This document shows, piece by piece, positions 6,649-19,672 of a DNA stretch of 22,278 nucleotides. The first letter of the stretch is position 1. Every line of letters starts with the position of its first letter. A program made the translations under genes and the position numbers. The stretch is from positions 1 to 22,278 of the IMG/VR virus record IMGVR_UViG_3300047481_001769. One strand, 5' to 3'. The notes under the pieces were generated by a model. That model did not search any database and had not been told where the DNA came from. It saw nothing but the letters and a program-made list of their open reading frames with translations. This stretch comes from a virus.

Positions 6649-8706
6649 TTATATACTTACGAAAGTACCGTTAGAATTAAAAGTTGCACCATTGTTATCT
6701 GCTAGCATGAATAGTTCCATAGAGACATCTAGTATATCTGTGCCTTGGTATCCACTATTAATTCGCCACGAATATTCTGATGGGTTTGTGTCTACTTTAA
6801 GAGATGTTGCAATGCAGGGTGCATTTGTTATATAATCTCCCACAGTCACCTTTAAAACTGGACCGATGATGTATGGGTTGCCACTATACTTACCAACTGA
6901 ACTAGCTCTAATTAAACTTTGTATTTTACTATACATTGTTTTCATATTGGTTGCATTAGTTGCCGCCATTTTAAATCCTATTGATACAGTTCTAGTTACG
7001 CTGCTGAATACTTTTTGTATATCTTGTCTACCTACATATTTTACATCAGTATATGTTGGTGCCCAATTATCTGAAAATGCTGTTAAGTAGGGTTTAAATG
7101 TAATTGTTGTACCATCACGAATGGAGGATATACTAAATTTTATGTATCCTTGCTCAATATTATTATCTTGAGCACTTCTACTTTTACCTGCGTTATCGTT
7201 ACCTTGTTGTATTTCTCGCTGTCTTTGTCGATAAAATCCAGATAATCCAGCTCTAGTATTAGCTATTTCTAGGTAATTTTCAAGAGTGTTATTATTTTGT
7301 GGTAGTGCATCTAGACCATTAACAGTTACTCGATCCTCTTTATATCTTGTATTTGGTGAGTCAGTTAGGTCTGTTTGATCTTGGGTGTCAAACTGAGGTG
7401 TGAAGTTCGCGGATGGTGATGTAGATGTTGTTGGTATTGTTGATATACTATTATTAACTAATTGGATTGGTATAAAGGTTGTTGCAAAATTAGTTAATAT
7501 TGATATAGTCGAACCATGCTTTACTTCTGGTAATGTTCTTGCTAGTAGTCTATCTAATTCATATCCAAGTATGTTTAAATTTGCTTCACCGTGAACCTCT
7601 TTTGGTTTCAAAAAAGCTTTTAGTATACTGTTGATTGACGAGGTTGTGTCTGGAGTTGTAGATCCTTGATCTGGTATAAATTCTACTTGCGATAAAGTTG
7701 TTGTTCCTTGCTCAGGCGTAAATTCAGGTATTGTTATTGTTGTAGAACCTTGATTAATTATTGCAGTTATAAGCTGAGGTACTATGATTGAAACGAGGTT
7801 ACCTGCTAGATCTAGTGTTACTCCTTGTCCTATTAGAACCTGATCAGCGCTTATTGGATTTGTAACTGTTATTTGCGCATCTTGATTTGGAATAAATCCA
7901 TAGGGAGTGATAGTTACGCTACCTTGATTTGGTAAAAAGCTAAATGATAGTGATCCAATAAAAGAAGTGGTTACATTGTTCATTGTAACAGTTCCTTGAT
8001 TTGGAATAAAGTTGAATAAACTAACTATAATATCTCCTTGATTTGGTATAAAGCTATATGGGGTTATAGTAATTGTTCCTTGATTTGGAGTAAATGAAAA
8101 ATTAGTTATTGTAATACTTCCCTGGTTTGGAATAAATAAAAGCGACTGTATTACAATGCTTCCTTGATTTGGACTAAAGCTATATCTTATATCGGGTAAT
8201 ATCCCTATATAGAAATCAGATAGAAAGAATTGAGGTAAGCCAGTTGTACTACCAGCAACTCTCGATTGGTTTAATCTATCCTCTAACGATATTACGCTAG
8301 GGAAGGACTTATTTACTATGCCAGGTACAGTTGTAAATCCTGGTGATAGAATTGGTAATATTGTTGGTAGATTTTGTCTTAAAAGGTTTGACTGTCTTAA
8401 AACAAAATAATCCGTTTTGGCTTTTTCTAAATCCAAGGATAGTTGATCTGCTGTATCGTATCGTATTGGTCTTACTGGTGAGATTTCGATTTGACCTTGG
8501 TTTGGATTAAATTCAATAGTTTTTAGTATAGCGCTTTCACCTTGATTTATTTTTACACTACTCAATATTGGTGTTGTTAATCCTTGTTCAATTTTTGGAT
8601 CAGATGGTATAGGTGTAGTCGATCCTTGATTTATTTTAGGATCGAAGGGAATTATATCAATAGATTGTTCTTCTATTTTTAATCTTGTTTGGAATAATCT
8701 AGCCAT
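6649..8706 (-). CDS. Baseplate/tail-tip structural protein with NQG repeats
   Basis: A 685-residue protein in two parts. Residues about 22-350 are dominated by fourteen copies of a short motif built around P-N-Q-G or I-N-Q-G. Five lie in exact 14-residue tandem (pattern F-x-P-N-Q-G-x-I-x-I-x-x-x-x), alternating turn and beta strand. Residues about 505-685 form a globular domain (IKFSISSIRDGTTITFKPYL; VKYVGRQDIQKVFSSVTRTV; then GPVLKVTVGDYI) of a type I associate with virion proteins that cap or start the tail tube. T4 has gp48 and gp54 in the corresponding place just after the tape measure gene. The start codon lies one base after the tape measure stop. Function as a baseplate or tube-initiator component is inferred from the C-terminal domain and neighbours; the repeats look like an insertion on the surface. 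Confidence 0.72.
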   Translation of the reverse strand: MARLFQTRLKIEEQSIDIIPFDPKINQGSTTPIPSDPKIEQGLTTPILSSVKINQGESAILKTIEFNPNQGQIEISPVRPIRYDTADQLSLDLEKAKTDYFVLRQSNLLRQNLPTILPILSPGFTTVPGIVNKSFPSVISLEDRLNQSRVAGSTTGLPQFFLSDFYIGILPDIRYSFSPNQGSIVIQSLLFIPNQGSITITNFSFTPNQGTITITPYSFIPNQGDIIVSLFNFIPNQGTVTMNNVTTSFIGSLSFSFLPNQGSVTITPYGFIPNQDAQITVTNPISADQVLIGQGVTLDLAGNLVSIIVPQLITAIINQGSTTITIPEFTPEQGTTTLSQVEFIPDQGSTTPDTTSSINSILKAFLKPKEVHGEANLNILGYELDRLLARTLPEVKHGSTISILTNFATTFIPIQLVNNSISTIPTTSTSPSANFTPQFDTQDQTDLTDSPNTRYKEDRVTVNGLDALPQNNNTLENYLEIANTRAGLSGFYRQRQREIQQGNDNAGKSRSAQDNNIEQGYIKFSISSIRDGTTITFKPYLTAFSDNWAPTYTDVKYVGRQDIQKVFSSVTRTVSIGFKMAATNATNMKTMYSKIQSLIRASSVGKYSGNPYIIGPVLKVTVGDYITNAPCIATSLKVDTNPSEYSWRINSGYQGTDILDVSMELFMLADNNGATFNSNGTFVSI
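7975..8178 (-). repeat. Tandem 42-base repeat coding 14-residue NQG units
   Basis: Five consecutive units, each starting F-(S/I/T)-P-N-Q-G, are spaced exactly 14 residues apart (the fifth is partial). More degenerate single copies (INQG, IEQG, PEQG, PDQG) are scattered from about 7660 to 8640. On the plus strand the recurring string is ccttgatttgg. The repeat is within a coding frame and is conserved more as protein than as DNA. Confidence 0.9.
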
Positions 8707-11345: not shown

Positions 11346-11858
11346 TTATAATGATAGTAATCTATACCAAACAAGTAAAAAGGCTGCGAAACCATATAAA
11401 TTCCAAATTAGTGATTGATTGACTGTTGGATTCCAGGCTACTGAAGTAGTTGTTACAGTATTTCTCTTTACTGGATCGTATCGCATGATAGTACCGCTAA
11501 ATAGGGTGGCTTCAATATGGTATATTGTTGTATCAAGAAGAGATCCTACAAATGATCCCATAATCAGTAGACCTAATCCAAAAATAAATCCCGCTTTAGC
11601 TAAGTTAGTAGAAGTTCCAATATCATACATAAGTTGACTAAATCCTTCCGATATACTAATTCCTAGTACCTCAGCACCTAATTTAAACACCACCAAACCA
11701 AAAGCTCCCAACATTAAACACATTATCATAGTTACAAACCACTTAATTGGGTAGTATAGCCAGCGGTGATTATGTCTTAGATAAGCAAGTATCAATCCAA
11801 CAATAATTACCTGTAGAATAAATACTATTGTCTTTGCGAGGTTGTCTAAAAAGTTCAT
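11346..11858 (-). CDS. Four-helix membrane protein of unknown function
   Basis: A 170-residue integral membrane protein. Hydrophobic segments are visible at about 9-27 (TIVFILQVIIVGLILAYL), 39-60 (WFVTMIMCLMLGAFGLVVF), 87-110 (AKAGFIFGLGLLIMGSFVG) and 150-168 (LIWNLYGFAAFLLVWY). They are joined by short loops, the longest being a polar stretch with VKRNTVTTTS. No cleavable signal peptide is evident. It is unusual to find a membrane protein between the chaperone pair and the tape measure gene. It is bounded by hairpins on both sides (11938-11973 and 11294-11321), so it is probably transcribed on its own. A holin-like, superinfection or host-membrane role is possible, but nothing in the sequence identifies one. 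No Shine-Dalgarno is present. Confidence 0.78.
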   Translation of the reverse strand: MNFLDNLAKTIVFILQVIIVGLILAYLRHNHRWLYYPIKWFVTMIMCLMLGAFGLVVFKLGAEVLGISISEGFSQLMYDIGTSTNLAKAGFIFGLGLLIMGSFVGSLLDTTIYHIEATLFSGTIMRYDPVKRNTVTTTSVAWNPTVNQSLIWNLYGFAAFLLVWYRLLSL

Positions 11859-11975: not shown

Positions 11976-12224
11976 CTATCTTTTTTTAGATGCGTTTTTG
12001 TATGCTGCCTCTTCGGCTTCTCGCTCTTTTTTCTTTACATCCGCCAACTTTAGGTAGTAATATCTTCTTAACCAAACTGGTAGATTGTAAAGTTCCTTAA
12101 AGGTAAAGCCCATTTTCCCATAATACATCAGATCAAAGATCTGGTCGAAGATAAGGGGTCGATAATCAGACCCCAGGCCAAAAAAAGGACACGTCGATCG
12201 GTACCTGTATTTTTTCATTCTCAT
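11976..12224 (-). CDS. Downstream frame of tail assembly chaperone (gp51-like), probably made by frameshift
   Basis: This frame overlaps the end of the gp26-like gene and continues 67 codons past the T-run at 12186-12180. Its post-overlap part is protein-like: GLGSDYRPLIFDQIFDLMYY, then LYNLPVWLRRYYYLKL and a Lys/Glu/Ala-rich helical tail. The part inside the overlap (MRMKKYRYRSTCPFF) looks like an accidental translation. In-frame starts are ATG at 12224 and 12218 and TTG at 12263, none with a convincing ribosome site. The best reading is that ribosomes translating the gp26-like gene slip at TTTTTTT and make a fusion of about 341 residues. T4 has gp26 and gp51 as neighbours upstream of its tape measure gene, and many tailed phages make a frameshifted chaperone here. 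If instead separately started, the ATG at 12224 is likeliest. Confidence 0.7.
   Translation of the reverse strand: MRMKKYRYRSTCPFFGLGSDYRPLIFDQIFDLMYYGKMGFTFKELYNLPVWLRRYYYLKLADVKKKEREAEEAAYKNASKKR
12155..12186 (-). promoter_or_regulatory. Candidate programmed frameshift site: T7 run plus hairpin
   Basis: Minus strand order: gp26-frame codons TTT TTT TGG form a run of seven T at 12186-12180. A five-base spacer follows (12179-12175), then a hairpin with GGGGTC (12174-12169) pairing perfectly with GACCCC (12160-12155). The loop is eight bases and contains the gp26-frame stop TGA (12168-12166). The downstream frame requires a +1 (or -2) shift; Phe tRNA on TTT can re-pair perfectly in either case. 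Slippery run, spacer and stem are seen directly; frameshifting is inferred. Confidence 0.65.
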
Positions 12225-13002
12225 GTCCGCAGTGTGGGCATGTGTAATTGAAAGTTGTGTCAATATCAGGTGTGATCTCCTTTAAGTATTTACGTAATGC
12301 AAAAGAGTCTGCAGCTAACATATTATTGACGAATGTAGATGTTACTGCATCTGGATTGCCATCTACTGCGATGATCACATATTTTAACCTAGTTGTTAGT
12401 TCTGGATCAACTTTGGTTAGGGAGCTCATTTTTTTCAGACCTTTTAACTCCTCTTCGATTGCTTTTTCATCACCGTGTGTGAGGAATTTTAGAGTTAGTA
12501 CCTTTTTAGATGCCGGTAGTGTGAAGTTAAACGCATTCTGACCTTTCGTGAAGGTATTAAAATCTACATCCTTAGATTCAAAAGAGGTTAGATCAATTGT
12601 GTGTTTTGATTTCTCACCACAAGCTGGACAAGCTACTTCTACATCATAGTCTTTTCCGTAACCAAGTACTCTTGCTGCGATAAAGAGTGCATTTTTGTCA
12701 ATAACCAATAGATCGTTGTAATTAAACTTATCTACAATTAATGCTTGTAATAACTTATCGATTACTACTCCTTGTTTAATTAGGTTTTGAGATGTGAGTA
12801 TATCCTCTTCTTTAGCGGTCATATACTTCATTTCAATCTTACCTGATGCAAGAGGATGTCCTTCTGGGTAAAACATACCTTTACTTGGTAGTTCAATTAC
12901 TTCTGTTGGTACGTCTGGTGTTGATTCTTTTGCTACATTCTGGTAATTCCCAGTGATCATAGCTTTTAATTGTTCATCTGAAACTTCTGTTACTTTTGAC
13001 AT
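12166..13002 (-). CDS. T4 gp26-like baseplate hub assembly protein / tail assembly chaperone
   Basis: A 278-residue member of the T4 gp26-type family. The N-terminal part has the family pattern VIELPSKGMFYPEGHPLASGK (35-55) and YMTAKEEDILTSQNLIKQG, followed by a helical part ending in FIAARVLGYGKDYDVEV. Two CxxC knuckles, CPACG (125-129) and CPHCG (255-259), probably bind one zinc and close the domain. The protein ends VPIDVSFFWPGV. T4 gp26 is needed for hub assembly. Here the gene sits between tail tube and tape measure, the position of the tail assembly chaperone (G-type) gene, and its end carries a slippery T-run allowing read-on into the next frame. It starts its own unit, after a strong terminator and a TATTTATA motif. 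Family assignment is firm; the chaperone role is inferred. Confidence 0.88.
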   Translation of the reverse strand: MSKVTEVSDEQLKAMITGNYQNVAKESTPDVPTEVIELPSKGMFYPEGHPLASGKIEMKYMTAKEEDILTSQNLIKQGVVIDKLLQALIVDKFNYNDLLVIDKNALFIAARVLGYGKDYDVEVACPACGEKSKHTIDLTSFESKDVDFNTFTKGQNAFNFTLPASKKVLTLKFLTHGDEKAIEEELKGLKKMSSLTKVDPELTTRLKYVIIAVDGNPDAVTSTFVNNMLAADSFALRKYLKEITPDIDTTFNYTCPHCGHENEKIQVPIDVSFFWPGV

Positions 13003-16405: not shown

Positions 16406-17965
16406 CTATATAACAAAGGTATATCCTATTGTTCCTGGCCTAGATCCAGTGGCCCAGTTAACTGTATCTGTTAATGCTGCTCCAAAACTCCATATTGTTT
16501 GACCTTGGGATGAATCTATACGAGTACCATTAACGTATATAAGTTGTTGTTGTGCACCATAATCTAATGTCCACAGCGATCTTGTAGTTGCATTATCTGA
16601 GGTCATTAATATTCGAGCTGCTGCTGTTGCAGTTAAGCTTGCATTAGTTGTAGTTCTATAACTAGCTCCAGTACTACTGTTTCCTAGTGTTATTGTTCTA
16701 CTTGTATTTGAACAGATTAAGTTTGCACAAGTCCAGCCTGCTGAGCCGGTGAATACTGTATTTCCTGTTGCTGCTAGGGTTAAATTATTTTGAATTGTAT
16801 TTAATGTATTTTGAGTAGTTGTTGATGCTCCTGGAATAGTTAGATTCCAGAAAGTCATGCCGTTTATGGTTACGGATGTGTTGTTTGGGATAGTAAATGT
16901 AGATGTACTAGGAACTATAGTTCCTGCGGTGTATGTTAAAGTTCTTCCGGCTGCACCCCATGTTACTGTACCACCGGCAGGAAAAGTTACTGTTGCTCCT
17001 CCGCTTTTATTTATAGTTAAGTTATTTTGAATAGAGCCTGCCGCTATAGATGCGTTAGCTGATCCACTCATTTCTATCGTTGCGGTTCCAGTTAATCCGT
17101 GAGTTGGAGTAATATTTCCACCAACAAAAACTGTAAATGCCCCGTTTATCGCACCAGCTACAAATGCATTAACTGCTAAACCTCCACTTATGTTCATATT
17201 TGAATTAAGTGTTATTGCTTGACCGCCAGCAGCTAAAAAAGCTAAACTATTAAACGTAATTCCTGACACATTATTATATACAACACCTAAACCACCATTG
17301 TTCACTATTCCAGTTGAGATATAACTACCAGTAACGTAGGTAAATGTACACGTAGACAGAGCTAATCCAGCTTGGGTTATAGTTCCTGCTGAACTGCTTA
17401 TTAAGATTGTTGAACCAGCAATTGTATTTCCTGTATAATTACCTGATAATGTTCCTGTTCCTCTGAGTAAGAAAGTAACATTGGTGGCACCCAATCCACC
17501 GGCTACTGTTAAACCTCCACCAAGACTTGCAGTAAATCCACCCCCAGTAATAGTTTGTGCATTAAGATTTTGACTAATAGTACCATTAATTATCCAATTA
17601 CTACCTAAAGTATGTACTGTACCGCCGCCTCCATTTAATGTTAGTGGTGCATCCAATGTAACTCCATTTGATATGAGAGTTCCATTTCCTGTTTTTGAAA
17701 TACCTCCACTTCCAGTAATAGCCATTCCTGAATTTAATGTGAGATTACCTACAACGGTTAGAGTGTTGGCTAAACTCATTGTACCTAAGTAGGCTGAGCA
17801 ACTAAGTAGTGAACATGCGGCACCTGCTGTAATAGTACAGTCTTTACTACCACTCACTCCAGCACCAGTAAATAATGCTGTCGTAGTGGATGTTGGAGCT
17901 ACAGTATCCCAATTAGCGTTATTATTCCAGTTATTATTTAATCCTAATCCAGTCCAAATCGGCAT
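16406..17965 (-). CDS. Adhesin-like beta-structured protein, second copy of a pair
   Basis: A 519-residue protein rich in Gly, Ser, Thr, Asn and Ala, with repeated strand-turn patterns (NLTLNSGMAITGSGGISKTGNG and similar) that suggest a beta-helix or beta-solenoid. The N-terminus has spaced Trp-Asn motifs (MPIWTGLGLNNNWNNNANWD). The last ~117 residues, from TFTGSAGWTCANLIC to the end, form a distinct domain closely matching the end of the preceding gene. The shared core includes LIYVNGTRIDSSQGQTIWSF. Such a layout suits a host-surface-binding tail or decoration protein with a common C-terminal cap or receptor domain. No enzyme motif or signal peptide is seen. It starts 21 bases after the related gene's stop, consistent with tandem duplication. 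The exact function is not known. Confidence 0.75.
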   Translation of the reverse strand: MPIWTGLGLNNNWNNNANWDTVAPTSTTTALFTGAGVSGSKDCTITAGAACSLLSCSAYLGTMSLANTLTVVGNLTLNSGMAITGSGGISKTGNGTLISNGVTLDAPLTLNGGGGTVHTLGSNWIINGTISQNLNAQTITGGGFTASLGGGLTVAGGLGATNVTFLLRGTGTLSGNYTGNTIAGSTILISSSAGTITQAGLALSTCTFTYVTGSYISTGIVNNGGLGVVYNNVSGITFNSLAFLAAGGQAITLNSNMNISGGLAVNAFVAGAINGAFTVFVGGNITPTHGLTGTATIEMSGSANASIAAGSIQNNLTINKSGGATVTFPAGGTVTWGAAGRTLTYTAGTIVPSTSTFTIPNNTSVTINGMTFWNLTIPGASTTTQNTLNTIQNNLTLAATGNTVFTGSAGWTCANLICSNTSRTITLGNSSTGASYRTTTNASLTATAAARILMTSDNATTRSLWTLDYGAQQQLIYVNGTRIDSSQGQTIWSFGAALTDTVNWATGSRPGTIGYTFVI

Positions 17966-17986: not shown

Positions 17987-19672
17987 TTAACATACAAATG
18001 TATTTGCTACTGTTAAAGGTCGACTTCCAGTACCCCAATTAGTAGTACCGTTTAAAGTTCCTCCAAAACTCCAAATAGTTTGACCTTGAGATGAATCAAT
18101 TCTTGTTCCGTTTACATATATTAAAGATTGAATAGCTCCATTATCTAATGTCCAAATTGATTGAGTTGTTGGATTATTTGATGTCATTGCAATTCCAGCT
18201 GCAGCAGTGCCTCCAGTCAATGCTGCGTTATCAGTTGTTCTATAGGAGGCGCCTGAAGAGCTATTAGCTAATGTTAAAGTTCTACCTGCTGTTGTACATA
18301 TTAAATTTGCACAAGTCCAGCCTGCTGAACCGGTAAATGTTGTATTCAATGATGCTCCAAAGGTTATGCTAGAAGATATTAGTAGTGGTGATAGTAGTGT
18401 TATAGTGTTGGCTGAATTGGCAGCTCCAGCTGAGACTAGGTTACCCCATAGTATTGTATTTGTGTTGAATCTTGGAGTTGTATTAATGCCAGTAGCACCC
18501 ACTGTTATAGTTGATCCGGACGCTATTATCGTACCTCCTGTGGAATTATTTAATATTTCAACTTGAGTTCCATTAAGAATCGTAATTGCCGATGGTGCTA
18601 CTGTTATTGATCCACCAGTTAATTTAAACTCTAAAGAAGCACTAGTTACCATATTATTAAAATTAGTTAGTGTTCTTCCGGATGCTGAGCCAGTAATAGT
18701 TAAATGTACGCTATTTAAGTTAATACCTCCTGCAGTGTTTATATTCACATTTCCATATGCATTTATTCTAGATCCGTTTACAGATACTGTTGTAATGCTA
18801 TTGTTGCTATAAGAAAAGGATCGACTAATATTCAGACTAGATGATAGTATCATAATTCGATTTCCTCCAAATAGATCACACCTATTCCACATCATACCTG
18901 CTGTATCAAGTGTAACAGTGCCAGCAGTAAGTTGAAGATTGTGATTATTAGTAAAAGTAACTCCACTTGCCGTTACATATGTAATCTTTCCAGAAGCATA
19001 TACTATAGCAGTATCAAAATTAACACGGCCAGATCCACTTATAATTAAGTTGTTTGAAAAAGTACCAAATGTACTTGCAAAAAATGATGCAGTTTGTCCT
19101 GCTTGTGGATTAATGTACATTGTTGATGTTCCTGCGGTAATATTTTGAAAATAGGATACACCTCTCAACATAATATCTCCTCCATTAAATATTACAGCTG
19201 GACCACCGTTGCTGTATGTCGTTGTTATATTGTTTTTTATAATTAGAGTATCTGCTAGGTTTAAAGTTAGGTTTGGGCCAAAGGAAATATAAGATAAACT
19301 ATGTATCGATTTTCCACTTGATGTAATAGCGCAAGTTGTATTAGTAGGAAATGTAATAGCTGCAGATCCAGTTACATCCGACATTGATGGTGATAATGCT
19401 AAACTTCTACTCACTGTAAGTGAACCAGCACCAGTCGTACCAACTGTAAATAAGCCGGTGTAATTAGAAGTGCCGCCATTAGTAAAGTCTATGCGATCAG
19501 CAGCTGCTGCTACAGTTGTTATAGTGCAGTTTGCACTAGCTGCTTCAAAAAACACATCATCTGCTATACCTGGAACAGTTGTTACATTTGTGTAGGTTGG
19601 TGATGGAGTTGAACTCCAACTAGCCGTGAGATTCCAGTTGGTTCCAGTATTTCTAAAATAATAGGTGGCCAT
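17987..19672 (-). CDS. Adhesin-like beta-structured protein, first copy of a pair
   Basis: A 561-residue protein of the same design as its downstream neighbour. The N-terminus is Trp-rich (YYFRNTGTNWNLTASWSS). A long Ser/Thr/Gly/Asn-rich body with strand-turn repeats gives a beta-solenoid-like pattern, and a C-terminal domain from TFTGSAGWTCANLIC onward ends NTFVC. By hand count about 86 of 117 C-terminal positions match the neighbour, while the bodies are much more diverged. This fits a receptor-binding or capsid/tail surface protein whose end domain is kept constant. Its ATG overlaps the stop of the 80-residue gene by one base, so the two are translationally coupled. No Shine-Dalgarno or signal peptide is visible. 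Confidence 0.75.
   Translation of the reverse strand: MATYYFRNTGTNWNLTASWSSTPSPTYTNVTTVPGIADDVFFEAASANCTITTVAAAADRIDFTNGGTSNYTGLFTVGTTGAGSLTVSRSLALSPSMSDVTGSAAITFPTNTTCAITSSGKSIHSLSYISFGPNLTLNLADTLIIKNNITTTYSNGGPAVIFNGGDIMLRGVSYFQNITAGTSTMYINPQAGQTASFFASTFGTFSNNLIISGSGRVNFDTAIVYASGKITYVTASGVTFTNNHNLQLTAGTVTLDTAGMMWNRCDLFGGNRIMILSSSLNISRSFSYSNNSITTVSVNGSRINAYGNVNINTAGGINLNSVHLTITGSASGRTLTNFNNMVTSASLEFKLTGGSITVAPSAITILNGTQVEILNNSTGGTIIASGSTITVGATGINTTPRFNTNTILWGNLVSAGAANSANTITLLSPLLISSSITFGASLNTTFTGSAGWTCANLICTTAGRTLTLANSSSGASYRTTDNAALTGGTAAAGIAMTSNNPTTQSIWTLDNGAIQSLIYVNGTRIDSSQGQTIWSFGGTLNGTTNWGTGSRPLTVANTFVC

Follow-up and report, generated by a model that had tools for sequence, protein, structure and literature searches.

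Results

The gp26-like gene described here very likely encodes a tail assembly chaperone (TAC) in two forms through a programmed +1 frameshift, and phage T4 gp26 and gp51 would be the same pair of proteins, made from duplicated genes. With slightly less assurance, gp26/gp51 can be considered the G/GT-type TAC of T4-like myoviruses in general, most lineages using a −1 or +1 shift and T4 holding duplicated short-only and long-only copies. The TAC function and the binding partners are inferred by analogy, as no protein or ribosome data are available.

The gp26-like gene among the tail genes

The window, that is the whole stretch of 22,278 nucleotides analysed, belongs to an uncultured virus and carries tail genes on its minus strand. 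The features needed for the following analysis are:

16039-13598, minus strand: sheath
13575-13084, minus strand: tail tube protein (phrog_4542, E 4e-25), directly upstream of the gp26-like gene
13002-12166, minus strand: gp26-like zero-frame gene, short form of 278 amino acids, with two zinc-ribbon motifs
12186-12180, minus strand: T7 slip site, with P-site codon TTT at 12183-12181 and zero-frame A-site codon TGG at 12180-12178
12155-12174, minus strand: 3' hairpin GGGGTC-TGATTATC-GACCCC, candidate stimulator, with the zero-frame stop in its loop
12179-11979, minus strand: +1-frame extension of 67 codons, first codon GGC, resembling the gp51 C-terminus and related to at least 61 loci
11263-8708, minus strand: probable tape measure protein (TMP), downstream, similar to a protein annotated as TMP in Flavobacterium phage immuto (E 3e-14 and 1e-10)

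The gp26-like product matches PF12322 (T4_baseplate) with an E of 2.4e-17 and 63.8 bits, for a curated cut-off of 24.5, and phrog_150 'baseplate hub' with an E of 6.4e-20, the latter family being found in 51 out of 51 relatives. The extension alone has no match in Pfam or PHROGs. A tube gene lies upstream of the gp26-like gene in 53 of 69 representatives and a TMP homologue downstream in 41 of 49, which bears out the slot, flanked by the tail tube and tape measure genes, that the original prediction had assigned to it.

Between the extension and the tape measure gene, a hydrophobic, membrane-like ORF of 170 amino acids (11346-11858, minus strand) has no homologue in the 49 relatives with enough downstream sequence and looks like a recent insertion. 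Elsewhere on the same strand, the adjacent large ORFs 16406-17965 and 17987-19672 show near-repeated C-termini (SAGWTCANLIC...SYRTT...LIYVNGTRIDSSQGQTIWSFG) and apparently encode duplicated, perhaps fibre-like, proteins. The first half of the 685-amino-acid protein encoded at 6649-8706 (minus strand) is rich in short repeats of PNQG type, and the protein is without family match in Pfam and PHROGs.

A conserved slip site and frame junction

The minus-strand gp26-like ORF ends with TCC (12189-12187) TTT TTT (12186-12181) TGG CCT GGG GTC TGA (12168-12166), and a second frame, offset by +1 or −2, is open across this stop down to its own TAG at 11978-11976. The stop after the T run and the other open frame, both claimed beforehand, were re-read in the sequence and are correct. 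With a +1 slip at the second TTT, the fused product would read SFF followed by GLGSDYRPLIFDQIFDLMYYGKMGFTFKELYNLPVWLRRYYYLKLADVKKK... and have 341 amino acids.

IMG/VR was scanned twice and the best 80 loci of each scan were taken, resulting in at least 140 loci and 112 distinct junctions, which are not a random sample. Among the matches listed, the slip site is kept in 111 of the 112 distinct junctions, down to 35% identity; the T run, the short overlap and the frame offset are thus conserved in the alignment of related loci that had been proposed as a check. TTT TTT TGG CCT itself is found in 101 of these 112 (again among the matches listed) and ten more are close variants, namely four TTT CTT TGG CCT, two TTT TTT TAT CCT and single instances of TTT TTT TAC CCT, TTT TTT TTC CCT, TTT TTT TGG CCC and CTT TTT TGG CCT; in one locus (L072) the slip site is absent. 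Since independent metagenomes share the junction, it is not an assembly error. In a further locus (L026, 4770-4823) the slip site is followed by a +1 extension of only 18 codons, which is broken or replaced.

Codon usage was compared in 75 representative gp26-like genes of less than 85% identity. Both Phe codons of the slip site are TTT in 147 out of 147 cases, compared to 537 of 681 (79%) elsewhere in the same genes, for a chance of ~ 1e-15 if the sequences were independent, although independence is not full. Furthermore, the CCT codon after the slip is present in 74 of the 75, and just two T7 starts are observed among the remaining 58,107 sense-strand bases of these genes while nearly all representatives have one at the slip site. 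Differences between related extensions fall on +1-frame codon positions 1, 2 and 3 in proportions of 26, 17 and 57%, a pattern by which the extension is judged to evolve as a +1-frame protein. Given the rarity of T7 elsewhere and this bias to third positions, the junction is not due to chance.

No upstream start position for the extension is conserved across relatives. In 34 of 71 complete representatives the +1 frame contains no ATG, GTG or TTG between the point where it opens and extension codon 5, in 29 there is none through extension codon 14, and in 30 the frame opens merely 3-5 codons ahead of the slip. A conserved independent start of the downstream frame, which would have refuted the original prediction, was looked for, and in roughly half of the relatives no start is possible at all; in those representatives fusion is therefore the only simple expression route for the extension.

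The 3' hairpin has 7 bp, is located ten bases downstream of the first position of the P-site codon and includes the stop codon. Its covariation score is 0.294 compared to 0.206 ± 0.020 in shuffles, a value reached by none of 500, and covariation is at most 0.173 when the hairpin position is slid. Moreover, one locus (L010) displays a change from GGGUCUG/CAGGCCC to GCCUCUA/UAGAGGC. One subclade, whose slip site continues GAC, lacks the hairpin, and the window hairpin by itself is not unusual compared to shuffling (z −0.73), so that only the comparative test revealed support for it. Its stimulation of frameshifting is inferred.

The features expected of a programmed +1 site are present, namely a conserved slip codon able to re-pair at +1, coding selection in the new frame downstream and no independent start. 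Considering that the slip site is kept, that the extension is under +1-frame selection, that starts are lacking and that the hairpin covaries, we conclude that, as far as sequence comparison can tell, the T7 run is a site of programmed ribosomal frameshifting; a +1 shift is most likely, −2 is not excluded, and no trans-frame product has been shown. Most ribosomes would complete the 278-amino-acid short form, and some would be held up while tRNA-Phe occupies the second UUU, with the slow UGG in the A site and the hairpin ahead. The stalled tRNA-Phe would then slip one base to the next UUU, giving the 341-amino-acid long form with a helical C-terminal extension.

The choice of +1 over −2, like the shift efficiency, is inferred. 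A −2 ribosomal shift at the same site, giving SFFF-GLGS, would have an identical frame offset, and the T7 run permits perfect re-pairing after it too; phage Mu is an example of such frameshifting. However, TTT CTT TGG occurs in four loci (L043, L046, L050 and L066) and in cultured immuto (L144), and it presents the bacterial prfB +1 motif CUU U, at which we know of no comparable −2 precedent, so that +1 tRNA slippage is favoured. In addition, SP-15, SagM and phiLo have TTT C, on which a +1 step would bring the tRNA to its cognate UUC. Hence, −2 frameshifting is an unlikely explanation, albeit the one of the alternatives that survives best.

The junction in other lineages and in T4

The gp26-type gene has a similar ending in other phages, with +1 frames in Microcystis phage Mel-JY01, immuto, RM378, SP-15, LIS04, SagM-GXN1 and phiLo, and −1 frames, with T TTT TTC or T TTT TTT as the slip site, in S-RIM8, P-SSM2, S-PM2, Aeromonas 65.2, Aeh1, SRB7757, Moby, Vibrio K575, Sinorhizobium phiN3, PA5oct, Atu_ph07 and XacN1, jumbo phages being included. 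In a separate scan, 77 out of 77 distinct cyanophage-type junctions display T TTT TTC, then one codon, then the stop, with a −1 offset; this −1 frame is the GenBank-annotated 'gp51' of cyanophages, listed as an independent gene. In Ackermannviridae, D507, Cygsa01 and LR756511 there is a TAATG/TAATT overlap with no clear slip site, hence re-initiation may have replaced the shift in those lineages. Such junctions are seen in L250, L254, L257 and L158, which cover Ackermannviridae and some Vibrio and Pseudomonas phages, and PhiSH19 has no ATG whatever at the overlap. The gp26-like gene of Thermus phage phiLo (L150, 4465-5211) carries a GenBank 'DNA methylase' label, which is possibly a misannotation.

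T4 genes 26 and 51 are divergent, and their products share PF12322 and phrog_150; of the 282 profile positions, gp26 covers 14-235 and gp51 13-280, and comparison of the gp26 and gp51 profiles gives P 4e-16. Gene 26 runs into gene 25 and the extension is absent from it. T4 holds two copies of the body while thirteen other genomes hold one each, a single body copy going with the frameshift, a second SRB7757 match being the extension itself and not counted. On the evidence of these alignments, T4 gp26 is the body and gp51 the body plus extension, and the two are paralogues.

The window extension is related to the cyanophage extension (profile P 1.2e-6), itself related to the C-terminus of T4 gp51 (P 3.5e-8), with negative reversed controls. 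The direct profile match between the window extension and the T4 gp51 C-terminus is not significant, and the link is transitive through the cyanophages, of which the P-SSM2 and S-PM2 extensions match phrog_150 positions 237-281 directly. By this transitive link the extension corresponds to gp51, as initially suggested, with the correction that T4 gp51 is more than the extension, being a full-length gp26 paralogue with the extension in frame; therefore, T4 most likely replaced frameshifting by gene duplication.

In a tree of 36 bodies, T4-type gp26 and gp51 are sister groups (94/91) placed within the half that otherwise uses −1 shifts or overlaps (99/96), and they adjoin Aeh1, 65.2 and K575 with weak support (84/43). 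Based on this tree and on the copy numbers, duplication in an ancestor that used frameshifting is the most likely origin of the T4 pair.

Predicted structure and likeness to tail assembly chaperones

Tail assembly chaperones include lambda gpG/gpGT, HK97 gp14 and P2 E/E'. AlphaFold2 modelled the gp26-like body with a pLDDT of 91.4 and T4-type gp51, a natural in-frame long form, with a pLDDT of 86; in the latter model the extension is predicted to form helices 207-221, 226-230 and 234-248. When 534 Foldseek PDB candidates were re-aligned to the body, 2OB9, the HK97 TAC, came first with Z 5.3 over 80 residues and 5IR0 second with Z 4.8, the next value dropping to 2.9. 5IR0 is the TAC of PLE1 and has been compared with 2OB9 (PMC12987554). 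By Foldseek alone, 2OB9 is not significant (E 1.7) and, Z values of about 5 being modest, the fold match is support and not proof. For the T4-type gp51 model, the only PDB matches were weak and C1QBP-like, without any TAC among them, and the PDB sequence search with the fused profile gave no match.

If the analogy with lambda gpG/gpGT holds, the tape measure protein would be coated by many copies of the short form, and tail tube subunits would be recruited through the extension of the long form; in T4, two duplicated genes would supply the same pair as gp26 (the body alone) and gp51 (the body with the extension). The anticipated resemblance of a gp26/gp51-type pair to G/GT is supported by the short/long architecture and by the slot between tube and TMP, the products themselves being inferred.

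It could also be that the frameshift is real while gp26 and gp51 are structural parts of the hub and the T4 counterpart of G/GT lies elsewhere, for example in gp27/gp28. Indeed, in Citrobacter phage Moon (L258, 11607-13245) gp27/gp28, immediately ahead of gene 29, are annotated as a joined 'tape measure chaperone' with a 'GT-like' frameshift, and some genetic work put gp26 in the hub (PMC3004832). However, gp27 is a hub family protein (phrog_1135), and the slip-site short/long architecture, the tube-TMP slot and the modest match to a TAC fold all belong to the gp26 family; gp51, for its part, is required but reported missing from the particle (PMC3004832), which is what a TAC should show. Such a scheme is consequently improbable compared to a gp26/gp51 TAC.

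Other routes to the extension

RNA polymerase slippage on the T7 run, producing mixed mRNAs with the frames joined at transcription, could be suspected from a homopolymer run within an AT-rich genome (36% GC), but it is very improbable since the run is naturally broken to T3-C-T3 in immuto and four loci, and since the near-invariant TGG, the short stop distance and the covarying 3' hairpin are unexplained by runs alone. Equally hard to defend is a separate small protein never fused to the body and expressed from its own start by re-initiation after the overlap: LR756511, Cygsa01, D507 and ZQ1 do have an in-frame ATG within the TAATG overlap, and many cyanophage loci an ATG 1-4 codons past the stop, yet the opening of the frame in the window clade is often only 3-5 codons ahead of the slip and 29 of the 71 representatives are startless far into the extension, T4 gp51 has the extension fused in frame, and invariant slip sites would have no reason.

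Discussion

T4 gp26 and gp51 were previously listed as 'hub assembly chaperones', in a context where results on T4 hub assembly roles were called 'rather contradictory' and gp51 'of unknown function' (PMC3004832), and a 2016 review described G-T frameshifting as conserved among long-tailed phages 'except T4' (PMC5009743). No earlier statement of gp26/gp51 as a TAC pair, or of a cyanophage gp26/gp51 frameshift, was found in the open literature. The hub assembly chaperone listing was thus already known, and what is new is the identification with the tail assembly chaperone. If true, T4 is no longer an exception among long-tailed phages, as it makes the same two forms from duplicated genes 26 and 51, and gp26/gp51 acquire a testable role in chaperoning the tape measure protein gp29. 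Many phages in culture, such as cyanophages, Aeh1, immuto, PA5oct and SP-15, are predicted to make an unannotated frameshift product, and 'baseplate hub' labels would be corrected for a very common gene family. At one junction, different lineages would use +1, −1, overlap and duplication.

Comparison with known systems

Like the lambda gpG/gpGT-type TACs, the window gene is predicted to have a short and a frameshift-extended form and is located between tube and tape measure genes, and the particle contains neither lambda gpG and gpGT nor, as reported, T4 gp51. In contrast, the window protein has no detectable sequence similarity to lambda-type TACs, has a zinc-ribbon body and belongs to large contractile-tail phages, and its shift is most likely +1, at UUU_U before an A-site UGG, whereas the usual one is −1. 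The HK97 TAC is, with a modest Z, the closest fold to the window N-terminal domain among the solved structures compared. In the bacterial prfB +1 frameshift, whose site is discussed in the PRFect paper (PMC10885494), the P-site tRNA likewise slips on CUU U / UUU U, but the A site is UGA instead of the sense codon UGG and an upstream Shine-Dalgarno sequence is found (PMC10885494) in place of the downstream hairpin. In the gp26/gp51 of cyanophages (Kyanoviridae), the frames also overlap at the end of the same gene and the extension is homologous, with a −1 shift at T TTT TTC rather than +1. Finally, T4 gp26/gp51 are of the same PF12322/phrog_150 family as the window gene, but as two divergent genes and not one recoded gene.
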